Below, in pieces: positions 1-5,508 of a stretch of 39,710 nucleotides of DNA. The notes beneath the pieces are model-generated. The model saw nothing but the letters and a program-made list of their open reading frames with translations, was not told where the DNA came from and searched no databases. This DNA comes from Deltaproteobacteria bacterium (GTDB lineage: Bacteria; Desulfobacterota; Syntrophobacteria; Syntrophobacterales; Thermodesulforhabdaceae), in NCBI GenBank assembly GCA_019309115.1, contig JAFDGW010000025.1, positions 1-39,710 on the forward strand, in the 5' to 3' direction. Numbering within the stretch: position 1 is the stretch's first letter; every line of letters starts with the position of its first letter. Both the position numbers and the translations under genes were made by a program.

Positions 1-572
1 AAGACTGATAGGCAACCCAAGCACCGAATGGCAAAAACCCTGAATCATCCTGCGGCTGTTTCCCGCTATCCCTGCAAGCTCAATCATAAGTGCAGAAAGC
101 CGGGGACCATATCCCACCTGGTATTCCGAAGGAATGTAACCCTTTTCCTCCCTGCCGCACGAACAACACCTACCTCTGTAAAGATGAAAATGTGACACTT
201 CCAGGGGAATTACGGGAAGCTCAATATATTGGTGTGTATAATAATGTTGAATGTCTTCAAACTCACAACAACCACACTTGCACTGTTCCGGATAAATATG
301 ATGCTCTTCGGTGGGCTCCAATAACTGCTCTTTTCCTTTTCCCTGCTCGCCCTTGGCTTGCGATAAGGACCATCCGACGAAGGAGGCTGGTCTGAGTTGG
401 AAGAATCGCGGTTTAAAAGTTCTTCAATCTGTCTTTCAAGCTCCTCAATACGTTTCGAAAGCTCGGCCATCGTCTTCTTATCTTCAATACTCGCCTTTTC
501 ACGCTCAATGATAAAATGCCGAACCGCTATGGGTGTTGCCTCCCAGTCTTCCTCCGAAAAAGGCAATCCCAA
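1..572 (-). pseudogene. IS66-family transposase (TnpC), frameshifted and cut by the window edge
   Basis: The minus strand encodes the N-terminal part of an IS66-type transposase. There is a leucine/glutamate-rich coiled coil (MAELSKRIEELERQIEELL) followed by the IS66 hallmark NSDQPPSSDGPYRK. The reading frame is then lost. The downstream part continues in another frame from about position 366 to the left edge, with a cysteine-rich CKCGCCEFED / CCSCGREEKGYIP zinc-finger region and QVGYGPRLSALMIELAGIAG, which is typical of IS66 just before the DDE domain. A frameshift therefore lies at about 345-370. The frame appears to open with TTG at 572. The rest of the gene is outside the window. The two-frame structure suggests a dead copy, although a sequencing error is possible. 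No partner genes (tnpA, tnpB) or terminal repeats were found nearby; 573-725 holds nothing I recognise. Confidence 0.8.
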
Positions 573-725
573 AGCTTTTGTACTTGATGAAATATCAACG
601 GTGGGTGCTTTCTTTCACCTCAACAATCTTCTCCTCTAAGACCACTCCCACCTATCACAAAGCCCGCTCACTGTATACAAAAATCTGCAATGCCACTATC
701 GTTATCCTGTGATCTCTTACAACAA

Positions 726-1100
726 AACAGACGCTGGATACACAGCTGGAATTTTGCCCAGCTCCAACAGTTCATAGAATATAAAGCTCAAGCTAAAGGA
801 ATAAGAGTGGTCTATGTAGATGCACGCTACACCTCTCAGAAGTGTAGCAGGTGCGGATATATTTCCCGTTCTAACCGACCTGACCAGTCCCACTTTGTTT
901 GTAAACAATGCGGTTTCTCCCTTAATGCTGACCTTAACGCCAGCAGGAACATAGTCAGGAACTATCTGACTTCTCTCCAAAGGAGAGAAGTCAGGGCTGG
1001 GAGTGGCATGTCCCTCCCGGTGGGGCGCTGTCAACCGTCCCAATGTAGCGGTGCTACCTGTTAGCATCAGCTACAAGCTCCTTCCGTTAGGGAGGAGTAG
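726..1100 (+). pseudogene. 3' remnant of an IS200/IS605-family TnpB (RNA-guided nuclease) gene
   Basis: Only the C-terminal third of a TnpB/OrfB protein is left. It holds the segment around WNFAQLQQFIEYKAQAKGI, the zinc-ribbon cysteines CSRCGYIS ... CKQCGF, and the final RuvC aspartate in LNADLNASRNI. The RuvC-I and RuvC-II regions are missing, so this cannot be an active nuclease. The open frame stops at 1064, but another frame reads QLQAPSVREE and stops at 1098-1100. That is the kind of tail TnpB proteins end with, so the 3' end is also shifted. The tail contains a perfect 11-bp hairpin (arms 968-978 and 982-992, loop AAA) and a second hairpin at 1078-1097, as expected where tnpB coding sequence overlaps the omega-RNA and right end. 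It lies directly upstream of the cobalamin riboswitch promoter. Confidence 0.8.
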
Positions 1101-1133: not shown

Positions 1134-1163
1134 TTGACATAACAGCAAAAATTGAAATATGTT
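1134..1163 (+). promoter_or_regulatory. Sigma-70-type promoter of the riboswitch/cbpAB transcript
   Basis: A perfect -35 TTGACA (1134-1139) is followed after 18 bases by TATGTT (1158-1163). Transcription would start near 1170, just ahead of the first riboswitch stem at 1182. The -10 box is a weak match, so this is a positional prediction. Confidence 0.5.
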
Positions 1164-1181
1164 TACTAACTGTTGATAAAA

Positions 1182-1333
1182 GGCTTCGACATCCCGGAAC
1201 ACGGTGAAAATCCGTGGCGGACCCGCCGCTGTGATCGGGGACGAAAGTCGCAACAATGCCACTGTCCACCTCAAGGTGGATGGGAAGGCGCGGCGAGTAG
1301 GATGATCCGAGAGCCAGAAGACCTGTCGAAGCC
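1182..1333 (+). promoter_or_regulatory. Cobalamin (B12) riboswitch aptamer
   Basis: The region carries the conserved cobalamin riboswitch core: GGAACACGGTGAAAATCCG, then GCGGACCCGCCGCTGTGA, GGGAAGGCG, and the B12 box AGCCAGAAGACCTG (1312-1325). The outer helix is visible: GGCTTCGACA (1182-1191) is an exact reverse complement of TGTCGAAGCC (1324-1333). It lies in the leader of the cbpA-cbpB-like genes, so adenosylcobalamin or a related cobamide should control them. The expression platform is the terminator at 1365-1417. Confidence 0.93.
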
Positions 1334-1364
1334 TGAGACGGGAAAATCCTGATGGCAAAAGGAT

Positions 1365-1417
1365 CCCGGATCAGTCCTTGTACCTGAGCATAGGTGGGGA
1401 TTGGTCCGGGTTTTTTT
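1365..1417 (+). terminator. Riboswitch expression platform: intrinsic terminator
   Basis: CCCGGATCAGTCC (1365-1377) pairs over 13 positions, with two G-T wobbles, with GGATTGGTCCGGG (1398-1410). A run of seven T (1411-1417) follows. The hairpin sits between the aptamer and the ribosome-binding site of the first gene, so the switch most likely works by transcription termination. The inner ACCT/AGGT pair (1382-1385, 1391-1394) extends the stem. Confidence 0.88.
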
Positions 1418-1454
1418 ATTCGTGGACGATTCTAAAGAGAAAGGAGGTGAACAG

Positions 1455-1547
1455 ATGAAGAGAAAAATCATCAGTTACAGGCGTCGTTGCCGTTCCTCGA
1501 TAGGAACAGGGCTGTCTCATTACATTTTGCTAACGCCTAAGAAGTAA
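1455..1547 (+). CDS. cbpA: Small peptide precursor of a cobalamin-riboswitch-linked RiPP (CbpA-like)
   Basis: This 30-residue open frame starts at ATG 1455 and ends at TAA 1545-1547. It has a near-perfect Shine-Dalgarno sequence, AAGGAGGTGA (1441-1450), 7 bases before the start. The peptide is basic, with an N-terminal MKRKIISYRRRCR segment, a single cysteine at position 12, a glycine-containing middle (IGTGLSHY) and a C-terminal LLTPKK. It sits between a B12 riboswitch and a SPASM radical SAM enzyme, the usual place for a peptide substrate. From memory this fits the family described as modified peptide precursor CbpA, whose partner is the peptide-modifying radical SAM enzyme CbpB. The mature product and its role (perhaps cobalamin- or metal-related) are not established; that part is inference. 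Confidence 0.75.
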   Translation: MKRKIISYRRRCRSSIGTGLSHYILLTPKK

Positions 1548-1561
1548 GGTTTGACCTGATG

Positions 1562-1591
1562 GCCGCCTTCCCTGCATCTGGGAATGGCGGC
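1562..1591 (+). other. Intercistronic hairpin between cbpA and cbpB
   Basis: GCCGCCTTCCC (1562-1572) pairs with GGGAATGGCGGC (1580-1591), with one bulged T. There is no T run, so it is more likely an RNA-stability or processing element than a terminator. Such a hairpin would favour more precursor peptide than maturase. Confidence 0.5.
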
Positions 1592-1625
1592 AATATCGCA
1601 AATCCATGTTAGGGGGAAATAGAAG

Positions 1626-3017
1626 ATGAACGGAGGGAAATACGCAAACTCAGGATATGGCCCATCATTCGCTGTTCTGGATATTGGGGTAGAAGACAGG
1701 GTTGCCGTGGTTGAGCCAGATACGGGTTTCTGGGCATTAGTTGAAACCGATGGTGCCATGCGGGATGCTCTATCAGGTGAACTGGTAGAAAAATTTTTCA
1801 ACGAAGAAAATACTCTTAGAAAGGAAATGCATTTCTTTAGATTTGAACTCAAGCCATCGGCTGTGTACTTTAACCCCACTGAGCGTTGTAACTTCAACTG
1901 TACATATTGCTATATCCCAGAAGATATGCGTCGAAACGGTGTTACAATGACGGAAACCCAAATCTTGGAGGCTCTGGAACGTTTGAAGGAGTATTTTTTG
2001 GAGTCCTTACCTGAAGGTGTAAAGCCACAAATAATCTTCCACGGCAGTGAACCTATGATGGTCAAGGATAACATCTTTCGGGCAATTGAAAAATTCAACG
2101 GAGATTTTCTCTTCGGCATCCAGACCAACGGTTCACTTTTGACGGAAGATGATATTGATTTCTTGAAAGAGCACTCCGTTGGAATTGGTCTTTCTCTAGA
2201 TGCCCCAGTGGAAGATATTGCCGACAGCGTTCGCAAAAATTGGAGCGGCCACGGAGCATTTAAGCACATAATAAAAGTCCTGGAAAAGCTTAATAGTTAT
2301 TCAGCTTATAACGTCATAACTACTGTCACCAGAGTAAACTGCGAACTCCTCCCAAAGATGATAGACTTTTATGCCGACCACGGTGTTCACATGGTGATGC
2401 TCAATCCCGTTCGATGTACTCAGCGGGGCGGTAAAGACCTGAAACCAGACAACGGCAAGCTTGCACACTATTTCTGCAAAGCTTTGGATAGGACACAGGA
2501 AATACTTGATAAAACAGGCCATAAAATAGTGGTAGTAAACTTTGCAAACGTGCTGGCCGGCATACTTGGACCAACAACCCGTCGTCTTATGTGTGACATT
2601 TCACCCTGCGGAGGTGGAAGATGCTTTTTTGCTGTGGCGGCAACAGGGGACATTTTCCCCTGCAGTGAATTTGTCGGCTTTCCTGAATTCTGCGGTGGCA
2701 ATGTGTTTAAAGATTCTATTTCTCAGGCACTTGAATCATCACCCCTTAAAAAGGTTACTTCACGAATTGTTGAAAACATCTCCCCCTGTAATCGTTGTGC
2801 AATAAGGCATTTCTGCGGAGCTCCTTGCCCTGCGGAAGTTTATTCGCTTAATGGAGATTTAAACTCACCCGCACCTTACTGCTCTTTTTATGAAGAACAG
2901 GTAAGGTATGCATTTCGGATAATAGCAAGGGGGGAAGAGCTGAACTTTCTGTGGAATGGATGGGACGACGAGACCGAACAAATTTTTCACTACTCAAGCC
3001 AGAAAGAAACCGTCTAG
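1626..3017 (+). CDS. cbpB: SPASM-domain radical SAM peptide maturase (CbpB-like)
   Basis: This 463-residue radical SAM enzyme is predicted to modify the small peptide encoded 78 bases upstream. The SAM [4Fe-4S] motif is CNFNCTYC (C88, C92, C95). It is followed by a glycine-rich FHGSEPMM segment (about 138-145), IQTNGS (165-170) and LSLDAP (189-194), as in the partial TIM barrel. The C-terminal half carries a SPASM-type auxiliary cluster region with C328, C333, C346, C388, C391, C397, C401 and C419 (ISPCNRCAIRHFCGAPCPAE). Residues 1-75 look like an N-terminal peptide-recognition region. Start ATG 1626 follows AGGGGG about 9 bases upstream. It shares the riboswitch transcript with the precursor. 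Family assignment to CbpB rests on gene context and architecture. Which bond it forms is unknown. Confidence 0.85.
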   Translation: MNGGKYANSGYGPSFAVLDIGVEDRVAVVEPDTGFWALVETDGAMRDALSGELVEKFFNEENTLRKEMHFFRFELKPSAVYFNPTERCNFNCTYCYIPEDMRRNGVTMTETQILEALERLKEYFLESLPEGVKPQIIFHGSEPMMVKDNIFRAIEKFNGDFLFGIQTNGSLLTEDDIDFLKEHSVGIGLSLDAPVEDIADSVRKNWSGHGAFKHIIKVLEKLNSYSAYNVITTVTRVNCELLPKMIDFYADHGVHMVMLNPVRCTQRGGKDLKPDNGKLAHYFCKALDRTQEILDKTGHKIVVVNFANVLAGILGPTTRRLMCDISPCGGGRCFFAVAATGDIFPCSEFVGFPEFCGGNVFKDSISQALESSPLKKVTSRIVENISPCNRCAIRHFCGAPCPAEVYSLNGDLNSPAPYCSFYEEQVRYAFRIIARGEELNFLWNGWDDETEQIFHYSSQKETV

Positions 3018-3039: not shown

Positions 3040-3060
3040 GGAGCGTGCTCAGCACGCTCC
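3040..3060. repeat. Perfect inverted repeat between converging genes
   Basis: GGAGCGTGCT (3040-3049) and AGCACGCTCC (3051-3060) are exact reverse complements around one base. It lies between the convergent ends of the radical SAM gene and livF. It may serve as a terminator for both, but there is no T run on either side, so termination is uncertain. Confidence 0.5.
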
Positions 3061-3778: not shown

Positions 3779-4532
3779 GAGAACCTCCTAGGTATGCTTC
3801 TCGAACCTTCGGATCAGCTCTAATGTCTTCCGGCTTACCCTGAGCCAAAAGTTCACCTTGATGTAACACATAAATATACTCGGCAACGGAAAAAACCACA
3901 TTCATATCATGTTCTGTAAAGAAAAAGGTCGTTTCGGTAGTAGTAGCGAGGTTTTTTATAAGGTGAACCATCTTTTCCGTTTCTTCCGGGGTCATGCCAG
4001 CGGTAGGTTCGTCCAGCAACACAAGCTGCGGTTTTCCGGCGAGCACAATCGCTATTTCCACCAACCTTCTGTCGCCGTAAGAAAGTTCCCTCGTTACCCT
4101 GGCGTAAACATCCTCCAGTCCTACGAGGCTCAGTACCTTCATTGCCTCATTGAATAAGTGTCGATCTTTCCTGTACTTCGTCCAGAAATAAAACCCTTTG
4201 CCTTCATGAAGGGCTATGGGAATCATTACATTTTCAATTACCGTCAATTCGTGGAAAATATTTGTTATTTGAAAAGACCGGGAAAGCCCCATAAGTGACA
4301 GCTTGTGCGGCGAATAACCCGTTACGTTTACTCCATTAAAGATAATTGACCCTCTGCTGGGACGGTACTTGCCAGACACCACGTTGTAGAATGTAGTCTT
4401 ACCAGCACCGTTGGGACCAATCAATGCGGTAAGTCTTTCTTCTGGCACAGTGATAGTGACATCTTTCAAGGCAATGAAATCTCCATAACGATGGGTAACA
4501 TTCCTAACTTCAAGAATATTTTCACTGGCCAT
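3768..4532 (-). CDS. livG: Branched-chain amino acid-type ABC transporter ATPase LivG (system 1)
   Basis: This is the second ATPase of the first HAAT importer (254 residues). It has Walker A GPNGAGKTT (about 38-46), the LivG-type switch region SRSFQITNIFHELTVIENVM, an ABC signature altered to LSYGDRR (usual for LivG), Walker B LVLLDEPTAGM and the H-loop FFFTEHDMNVV. The C-terminal RADPKVREAYLG is typical. It overlaps livM upstream by 11 bases and livF downstream by 11, so the genes are translationally coupled. Confidence 0.93.
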   Translation of the reverse strand: MASENILEVRNVTHRYGDFIALKDVTITVPEERLTALIGPNGAGKTTFYNVVSGKYRPSRGSIIFNGVNVTGYSPHKLSLMGLSRSFQITNIFHELTVIENVMIPIALHEGKGFYFWTKYRKDRHLFNEAMKVLSLVGLEDVYARVTRELSYGDRRLVEIAIVLAGKPQLVLLDEPTAGMTPEETEKMVHLIKNLATTTETTFFFTEHDMNVVFSVAEYIYVLHQGELLAQGKPEDIRADPKVREAYLGGSLDT

Positions 4533-5508
4533 GGGAACCTCGTCCTGATGATTTCATCAAATTCAACACCGTGCCCAGTATGCCACGAGGGAAAAAAAGA
4601 ACGATAGGAATAAGCAGGAGACCGAGCACAAACATCCAATTCTCGGTTATGTTAGTCACAAGCTGTTCTAGCACGAAGAATATAACCGCTCCAACAAAAG
4701 GCCCCCAAAACACCTCTGCGCCACCAAGTATCGTCATTAGAACTGGTTTTGCTGAAAAACTCCAATGAAGCATATCTGGCGTGGCCATACGATTAAAAAT
4801 ACAAAAAAGCATTCCTGCAAGACCCGACAACCCACCTGCCATAAGGAAAGCTACAAGGCGAACACTGGCGACATTGCCTCCTGAAAATGCCAATCGCTCC
4901 TTATTCTCACGGGATGCTTTGAGCATTAATCCAAAATGAGAATGAACGACCACTTGCAGGATGCAAAGGCCCACAAAAACAAAAGCTAGAACAAAATAGT
5001 AACCGTGAAGTGGGTGAAACAAACTAATCTTGGAAAAGCCCAAGTCGACTGGCGGAACGGTAGAAAGAGGTAATCCATCACTTCCCCCTGTAACTTCTCG
5101 CCAGTTGTGAGCTATTGTGAAAAGCATCATTCCAAAACCTAATGATAACATAGCAAAAAATATTTCATCCCTTCGGACACACAGATATCCTATGAAATAG
5201 GCAGCTATCAGTGTAGCGGTAATCGAAGCAATGCAAATCAGGATATACGAACCAACACCTTTAGACAGCAAGAGTGCCGTTACATAAGCCCCCACACCAA
5301 AAAAACCGGCTTGTCCGAAAGACAACAGTCCACAGTAACCAAAAAGTAAATTAAAACTTGTAGCAAATAACCCCATTATCAGGATTTCTGTTACCACCAT
5401 TACCCAGTAGGTAGGGATTACGAGGGGAACAAATAAGCCTAACACGAGAAAGACAATCAAGCCTGAGAATGGATACTCGAGAATTCGGCCTATCTTTTGA
5501 TGAACCAA
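4522..5508 (-). CDS. livM: Branched-chain amino acid-type ABC transporter permease LivM (system 1)
   Basis: This 328-residue inner-membrane permease has multiple hydrophobic segments starting near residue 14. The LivM signature is LLFGYCGLLSFGQAGFFGVG (about 53-72), with a cytoplasmic loop SRENKERLAFSGGNVASVRL and a GGLSGLAGML segment. It most likely starts at TTG 5508, because GGAGGTG lies a few bases upstream inside the end of livH. It forms the transmembrane pore together with LivH. Confidence 0.92.
   Translation of the reverse strand: MVHQKIGRILEYPFSGLIVFLVLGLFVPLVIPTYWVMVVTEILIMGLFATSFNLLFGYCGLLSFGQAGFFGVGAYVTALLLSKGVGSYILICIASITATLIAAYFIGYLCVRRDEIFFAMLSLGFGMMLFTIAHNWREVTGGSDGLPLSTVPPVDLGFSKISLFHPLHGYYFVLAFVFVGLCILQVVVHSHFGLMLKASRENKERLAFSGGNVASVRLVAFLMAGGLSGLAGMLFCIFNRMATPDMLHWSFSAKPVLMTILGGAEVFWGPFVGAVIFFVLEQLVTNITENWMFVLGLLLIPIVLFFPRGILGTVLNLMKSSGRGSHGQ

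Follow-up and report, generated by a model that had tools for sequence, protein, structure and literature searches.

A cobalamin-riboswitch-linked peptide and radical SAM maturase of the CbpA/CbpB family: conservation, association with cobalamin genes and a possible role in corrinoid metabolism

The cbpAB locus

We analysed a stretch of 39,710 nucleotides (contig JAFDGW010000025.1 of assembly GCA_019309115.1, from a Deltaproteobacteria bacterium), hereafter the window. Its plus strand carries a compact unit composed of a promoter-like site, a cobalamin riboswitch, a terminator hairpin, a ribosome-binding site (RBS), a gene of 30 codons and a gene of 463 codons encoding a radical S-adenosylmethionine (SAM) enzyme with a SPASM domain, in this order (Table 1). 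Comparison with homologous loci identifies the two genes as a new member of the CbpA/CbpB family, a predicted peptide and its maturase, and we hold both this identity and the link of the pair to vitamin B12 (cobalamin) with high confidence. The order and conservation of riboswitch, terminator, peptide gene and maturase gene, and their tie to cobalamin genes across phyla, were demonstrated by the sequence comparisons described below. The family is a catalogued one whose name refers to cobalamin; it is predicted and unstudied, and literature searches on the family and its B12 link turned up no publication dealing with CbpA/CbpB or with a cobalamin-linked ribosomally synthesised and post-translationally modified peptide (RiPP).

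Table 1. Features of the cbpAB unit and its leader
Feature	Position	Strand	Evidence and remarks
Promoter-like hexamers TTGACA-N18-TATGTT	1134-1163	+	10/12 consensus positions; plausible by position only
Cobalamin riboswitch aptamer	1196-1322	+	RF00174, 85 bits (gathering score 31.5), E 9.9e-20
Intrinsic terminator (expression platform)	1365-1417	+	13-nt arms 1365-1377/1398-1410, T7 1411-1417; sequence and fold
RBS of the peptide gene, AAGGAGGTGA	1441-1450	+	sequence; AGGAGG-type sites in relatives too
cbpA-type precursor gene, 30 aa, MKRKIISYRRRCRSSIGTGLSHYILLTPKK	1455-1547	+	ATG 1455, TAA 1547; TIGR04164, conservation, purifying selection
Possible RBS of cbpB, AGGGGG	1611-1616	+	sequence only
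cbpB, radical SAM/SPASM peptide maturase, 463 aa	1626-3017	+	TIGR04163, Pfam Radical_SAM and SPASM, alignment, AlphaFold2

The aptamer, the sole Rfam match in the window, lies within a leader region whose fold is unusually stable (-106.8 kcal/mol for positions 1170-1425; z -4.5). The terminator hairpin was not picked up by a simple terminator scan, a miss that its long loop presumably explains. In 37/37 homologous leaders, a hairpin more stable than -14 kcal/mol together with a run of at least five T was present between the aptamer and the peptide gene, compared with 31/740 dinucleotide shuffles. Transcription switches that B12 turns off are laid out in this way, and we infer that the leader works as one. 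The riboswitch and the terminator named in a preliminary description of the locus were thus borne out, and the conserved layout supports its proposal that the product is made when cobalamin is low. The promoter placed there fared less well: the hexamers are present and plausibly positioned, but the match itself does not exceed chance (5 promoter-like sites in the region, compared with 4.8 +/- 2.4 in shuffles).

The CbpA-type peptide

The 30-codon frame, which had been described as an easily missed gene with an RBS, is a real gene. It is under purifying selection (proportion of synonymous differences, pS, 0.735 vs proportion of non-synonymous differences, pN, 0.140, in five family members), and every CbpB locus at which its presence could be assessed retains it. 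For this comparison 115 loci were gathered by CbpB, not by CbpA, and a CbpA gene was found just upstream at 110 of them. Four misses are contig ends (L046, L066, L124 and L128), and in the genome of the fifth locus (L041) CbpA is encoded at an unlinked site (VFSYRRVCKGVNGTGLSHYILLTPSK, L160); all 111 judgeable loci therefore have CbpA, one of them unlinked. Lack of conservation of the frame beside homologous enzymes, which the preliminary description had named as the outcome that would count against it, was not observed.

The genome of locus L041 has peculiarities of its own. CbpA is unlinked in no other CbpB genome; here the gene adjoins a different SPASM radical SAM gene (L162, about 5080-5180 and 3791-4987, respectively), and no cobalamin riboswitch was found in that genome.

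Scored against the family model TIGR04164 (cobo_pep), the peptide of the window reached 29.7 bits (E 3.2e-07), which is under the curated cut-off of 35; the sister peptides (22-33 bits) likewise fall short, and all 54 aligned homologous peptides are hits to the model at E<=0.001. An additional residue separating the Cys from the Gly motif probably accounts for the shortfall. We therefore use the term "CbpA-type", as the NCBI rule would not name the product CbpA automatically. The peptide does carry the core RxxC...GLSH(Y/F) directly upstream of CbpB.

Five residues of the peptide are invariant (R9, C12, G19, L20 and H22), giving the pattern R-x-x-C...G-L-x-H. The Arg at Cys-3, which lay outside the search pattern, is invariant over 102 different peptides. 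GL and His belonged to that pattern; their invariance is nevertheless genuine, because every judgeable locus gave a match. The initial Ser-His-Tyr pattern had overlooked real peptides with GLAHY, GLTHY or GLSHF, and its relaxation cleared nearly all exceptions. Among the 102 peptides, the position before His is occupied by Ser (95), Thr (4) or Ala (3), and the position after it by Tyr (99) or Phe (3); the distance from Cys to His is 9, 10 or 11 residues. Of the modification sites proposed earlier, Cys12 and the Ser-His-Tyr triplet (residues 21-23), Cys12 keeps its importance, and in the triplet only His22 is invariant. Since Ser21 and Tyr23 vary, the candidate sites are Cys12, His22, the aromatic ring and backbone carbons, and the conservation pattern makes chemistry that requires the Ser hydroxyl or the Tyr phenol unlikely as a general rule.

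The CbpB maturase

CbpB belongs to its family without ambiguity: it scored 657.8 bits with TIGR04163 (rSAM_cobopep; cut-off 375) over model positions 2-427 of 428, and both Pfam Radical_SAM and SPASM were above cut-off. The family assignment made in the preliminary description is thereby confirmed, and of the two model searches it suggested, the one with the enzyme passed its cut-off and the one with the peptide did not. The cysteines of the CX3CX2C radical SAM cluster (C88, C92 and C95) and eight further cysteines of the SPASM region (C323, C328, C346, C388, C391, C397, C401 and C419) are invariant in an alignment of 55 sequences.

In the AlphaFold2 model of CbpB (predicted local distance difference test, pLDDT, 90), residues 13-435 find their best solved structural match in CteB, the thioether maturase of SCIFF peptides (Z 34.5), followed by the anaerobic sulfatase maturase (anSME; Z 33) and ChlB (Z 32.7). 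Most structural matches cover only residues 71-423; predicted residues 16-74 form three strands plus helices which align with the N-terminus of CteB. CteB possesses an N-terminal peptide-binding RiPP recognition element (RRE), and an auxiliary cluster with an open site thought to hold the substrate Cys (PMC8326336). On the strength of the model, residues ~13-72 of CbpB may form a possible RRE-like peptide-binding domain.

Kinship with the thioether formers PapB and CteB, together with the invariant Cys12, favours a thioether as the product of CbpB. This assignment is not secure, and we would give it about an equal chance of being right or wrong. Several points weigh against it. Cys323 has no equivalent in CteB, and a Cys is present at that position in anSME; auxiliary cluster I may consequently be fully ligated, in which case the mechanism of CteB may not apply to CbpB. 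C-C, C-O and oxidation chemistry are likewise compatible with the SPASM fold, and anSME is structurally nearly as close as CteB. Finally, a spacing of 9-11 residues between Cys and His is odd for one fixed cross-link.

Some CbpB genes are fragmentary or truncated (G016:C14 and G423:C22). Another truncated one, of archaeal origin (L104, 9841-10546), lies beside its own intact-looking CbpA and had earlier been taken as a decoy. Such genes suggest that the system is being lost in some lineages. Loci L105-L117 were rejected as CbpB (22-28% identity only); they encode other SPASM enzymes, and L105 lacks CbpA.

Distribution

CbpB over cut-off was found in 35/395 genomes of the phylum of the window's host and in 24/56 of its class. 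Named CbpB loci occur in bacteria of the Desulfobacterota/Myxococcota type, Planctomycetota, Verrucomicrobiota, Lentisphaerota, Omnitrophota and Elusimicrobiota, as well as in Nitrospirota, Nitrospinota, Chloroflexi, Actinomycetota and Alpha- and Betaproteobacteria. Available isolates with cbpAB include Dechloromonas hortensis, D. hankyongensis, Magnetospirillum fulvum and Rhodoblastus acidophilus. The system extends into the archaea: in the class to which a "Methanomicrobia archaeon" locus belongs, 7/58 genomes were over the CbpB cut-off. The archaeal CbpA has the sequence KQSVMAYRLKC..TANGGL[ST]HYMF (one archaeal peptide in the alignment carries one extra residue by error, which leaves the core unaffected).

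This distribution bears on the idea that B12 stress triggers the release of the product as a signal or an antimicrobial. Such functions are common among radical SAM RiPPs, but the CbpA core is nearly identical from Desulfobacterota to Actinomycetota and archaea, unlike that of diversifying toxins, and no recurrent immunity or export genes accompany it, so that we regard such a role as highly improbable.

Association with cobalamin genes

The tie to cobalamin metabolism was established along two lines, riboswitches and operons. A riboswitch was counted where CbpB was preceded on its own strand, at a distance of <740 bases, by an RF00174 match, and by this measure 48/64 CbpB loci of other named genomes have a cobalamin riboswitch of their own. 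Ten of the remaining 16 sit in operons with five to twelve cobalamin genes (biosynthesis or uptake), which brings the loci with either a riboswitch or a cobalamin operon to 58/64. Among further short loci, 37/39 have the riboswitch, and the two without it (L012 and L013) have CbiM after CbpB. The operon neighbours comprise CbiA/CobB, CobQ, CobO, CbiB, CobT, CobS, CobU, CbiC, CbiD, CbiG, CbiM, BtuF, BtuC and TonB receptors. At least two cobalamin genes were found beside CbpB at 18/65 loci, compared with 0/13 control SPASM loci (a small control set). On the CbpB tree the label "operon" or "alone" changes 10 times, which indicates that the association recurs and is not one inherited arrangement.

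Besides the riboswitch of cbpAB, the genome from which the window derives contains three more cobalamin riboswitches (four in all), which lie next to a TonB-receptor system (contig C10), a CbiK-like cobalt chelatase (C20) and a CbiL-like methyltransferase (C54); their position at B12-related genes suggests that cbpAB belongs to the B12 regulon of the cell. The riboswitch-linked cluster on C10 (L140, 3337-9228) comprises a TonB receptor, a possible ExbB-like protein and a BtuF-related protein, and a very long open reading frame (L140, 2-3472) stands after it.

Most CbpB loci carry only cbpA and cbpB. All-against-all clustering of the neighbouring frames, carried out in search of a third conserved gene, gave only cobalamin genes, generic ATP-binding cassette (ABC) ATPases and antisense artefacts. 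These data can be set against the possibility that the modified peptide spares B12, i.e. that it serves, as cofactor or small subunit, an enzyme which replaces a cobalamin-dependent one when the vitamin is scarce. Cobalamin riboswitches are known to govern B12-independent isozymes as well, and SPASM maturases produce enzyme-bound cofactors (pyrroloquinoline quinone, PQQ, and the gamma subunit of quinohaemoprotein amine dehydrogenase, QHNDH). Nevertheless, the operon neighbours of cbpAB are biosynthesis and uptake genes rather than isozymes, and no recurrent partner enzyme lies beside the standalone pairs; we consider this role unlikely.

In five loci (L055, L056, L063, L066 and L098) TonB receptor, BtuF and BtuC genes share the operon with cbpAB. 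Such an arrangement, together with the expression expected at low B12, would suit a secreted modified CbpA that captures extracellular corrinoid or cobalt and returns through the TonB/BtuFCD importers. This scavenger model, which we judge to be about as unlikely as the previous one, is opposed by the lack of an exporter, a protease or a recognisable signal in CbpA and by the prevalence of loci with cbpA and cbpB alone; moreover, the uptake operons form a single clade of the CbpB tree.

The same uptake-type operons contain two further genes. An asparagine-synthetase-like protein of ~316 aa without a glutaminase domain is encoded beside CbpB in L055, L056, L063 and L098, and a Dph6-like ATP pyrophosphatase near cbpAB/btuFCD in these four and also in L066. 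Both could possibly catalyse amide-forming steps, in corrinoid salvage or on CbpA.

CobT is present in 33/35 CbpB genomes and in 245/360 of the others (kinship not corrected), which fits cobamide use; its gene directly follows CbpB in five archaeal loci. As CobT activates lower ligands, its place after CbpB in the archaea and in L064, and its proximity elsewhere, would be consistent with CbpA as a small-molecule precursor, for example of an unusual cobamide lower ligand or of a PQQ-like cofactor excised from the H-[YF] region; the short conserved core indeed resembles PqqA and MftA. We regard this explanation as less probable than either of the two foregoing. BluB, which supplies the standard lower ligand, was over cut-off in 21/40 CbpB genomes, and its coexistence with CbpB argues against the peptide as a general source of lower ligands. 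Furthermore, PQQ and mycofactocin need several additional enzymes, none of which recurs at CbpB loci, and the Tyr is replaceable by Phe.

Which step of B12 metabolism?

CbiC, a marker of both corrin-ring routes, was searched for in 40 CbpB genomes. It was not detected in 13 of them, among which are all five genomes whose operons are of the uptake type; a full-score CbiF was likewise missing from 12 of the 13. CbiF is a less telling marker, as it was not found in two of the genomes with CbiC either. The 12 comprise one isolate (Dechloromonas hankyongensis) and otherwise metagenome-assembled genomes.

The retention of cbpAB where corrin rings seem not to be made argues against a role in cobalt insertion, that is, against a peptide which supplies cobalt for de novo corrin synthesis. 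A delivery function of this kind would agree with the CbiM cobalt transporter genes found after CbpB in L012, L013/L045 and L054, and with the genome of the window, which makes corrins and has the riboswitch-linked CbiK-like chelatase. It is distinctly improbable given that the pair is kept without detectable CbiC and CbiF, in D. hankyongensis and in the genomes with uptake-type operons alike.

We propose instead, and give the proposal an even chance of being correct, that cbpAB is a B12-repressed two-gene modified-peptide system which would serve corrinoid (cobamide) acquisition or intracellular handling. When cobalamin is sufficient, the ligand-bound riboswitch would let the terminator form and transcription would stop; when it is low, the terminator would not form, and cbpA and cbpB would be transcribed together. 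CbpB would hold CbpA, probably through the N-terminal RRE-like domain, cleave SAM at the C88/C92/C95 cluster and oxidatively modify the core C12...G-x-G-L-x-H-[YF]. The likeliest product would be a thioether between Cys12 and a nearby core residue, with the chances given above; the main alternative would be a C-C or C-N cross-link to His22 or to the aromatic ring. The modified peptide may then act as an intracellular corrinoid- or cobalt-ligating helper (a chaperone or a redox or ligand aid) through His and/or the modified Cys. Intracellular action appears most likely, because there is no conserved protease, exporter or third enzyme and no obvious export signal in CbpA. Because genomes with no detectable synthesis of the corrin ring keep the pair, it probably acts after that synthesis, i.e. 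in corrinoid uptake, activation or trafficking.

A narrower version of this proposal is put forward tentatively. Extrapolating from the conserved His and Cys, it is conceivable, though less likely than not, that modified CbpA is an encoded peptide ligand or chaperone for cobamides in bacteria and archaea, whose His and modified Cys would ligate cobalt and which would pass corrinoid on at low B12.

Two considerations speak against the proposed role in corrinoid acquisition or handling. The genomes that miss CbiC and CbiF are mostly metagenome-assembled, so their apparent lack of ring synthesis may partly reflect incompleteness, and L071 has a CbiD gene nearby. In addition, gene context points to a pathway and not to a step. 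The preliminary description had listed cobalamin uptake or sparing, or binding of a metal or cobamide; gene context and the salvage-only genomes narrow this list to corrinoid acquisition or handling, and do not prove it.

The present analysis adds to the catalogued family the operon evidence, the archaeal members with CobT and the persistence of the pair in likely corrinoid salvagers. It further shows that Ser and Tyr vary, that the terminator platform is conserved and that no third gene is conserved beside the pair. Since riboswitches as well as operons support the cobalamin tie, in many bacterial phyla and also in archaea, "function unknown" can be replaced by a specific idea, namely a modified peptide in corrinoid acquisition or handling. 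Should this idea prove true, vitamin B12 metabolism would include a widespread step that has so far gone unnoticed.

Flanking sequences

Directly upstream of the unit, at the contig start, lie remnants resembling transposase proteins of the IS66 type (210-572, minus strand) and the zinc-ribbon TnpB type (690-1064, plus strand), recognised by eye only; by the same criterion the flank is insertion-sequence debris. The genes downstream are on the opposite strand, and the cbpAB unit therefore stands alone. Just 3' of cbpB, between the convergent genes, is a perfect inverted repeat (3040-3060; GGAGCGTGCT-C-AGCACGCTCC) without a T-run, which is perhaps a bidirectional terminator.

Comparison with known systems

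The system closest to the one described here is CbpA/CbpB itself (TIGR04164/TIGR04163), with which it shares an enzyme family far above cut-off, the gene order, the peptide core and the upstream cobalamin riboswitch. It differs from the typical form in that Cys and His stand 10 residues apart, not 9, in the peptide of the window and in those of its near relatives.

CteA/CteB, a ranthipeptide system of the SCIFF type, is likewise composed of two genes and has no assigned role, and CteB is the best solved match of CbpB, including the N-terminal peptide-binding region. Identity between the two enzymes is only 21-23%, however, CbpB has the extra invariant Cys323, and CbpA contains one core Cys in place of the six of CteA. 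SCIFFs are not known to have a link to B12. PapB (NF047865), a known thioether former, is the next-best NCBIfam profile of CbpB (139.7 bits, residues 80-415); the score is far below the cut-off of that family (340), and CbpA, with its single conserved Cys, lacks CX3D repeats.

The anSME enzymes share the SPASM fold and a Cys at the position of Cys323. They differ in oxidising large enzymes, at a Cys or a Ser; in CbpA the Ser position can be Ala, and no sulfatase was seen. PqqA/PqqE and MftA/MftC offer a parallel in design, as each combines a short conserved precursor with a SPASM radical SAM enzyme in cofactor biology. The PQQ and mycofactocin pathways differ in relying on several conserved downstream enzymes, whereas none recurs at the CbpB loci.

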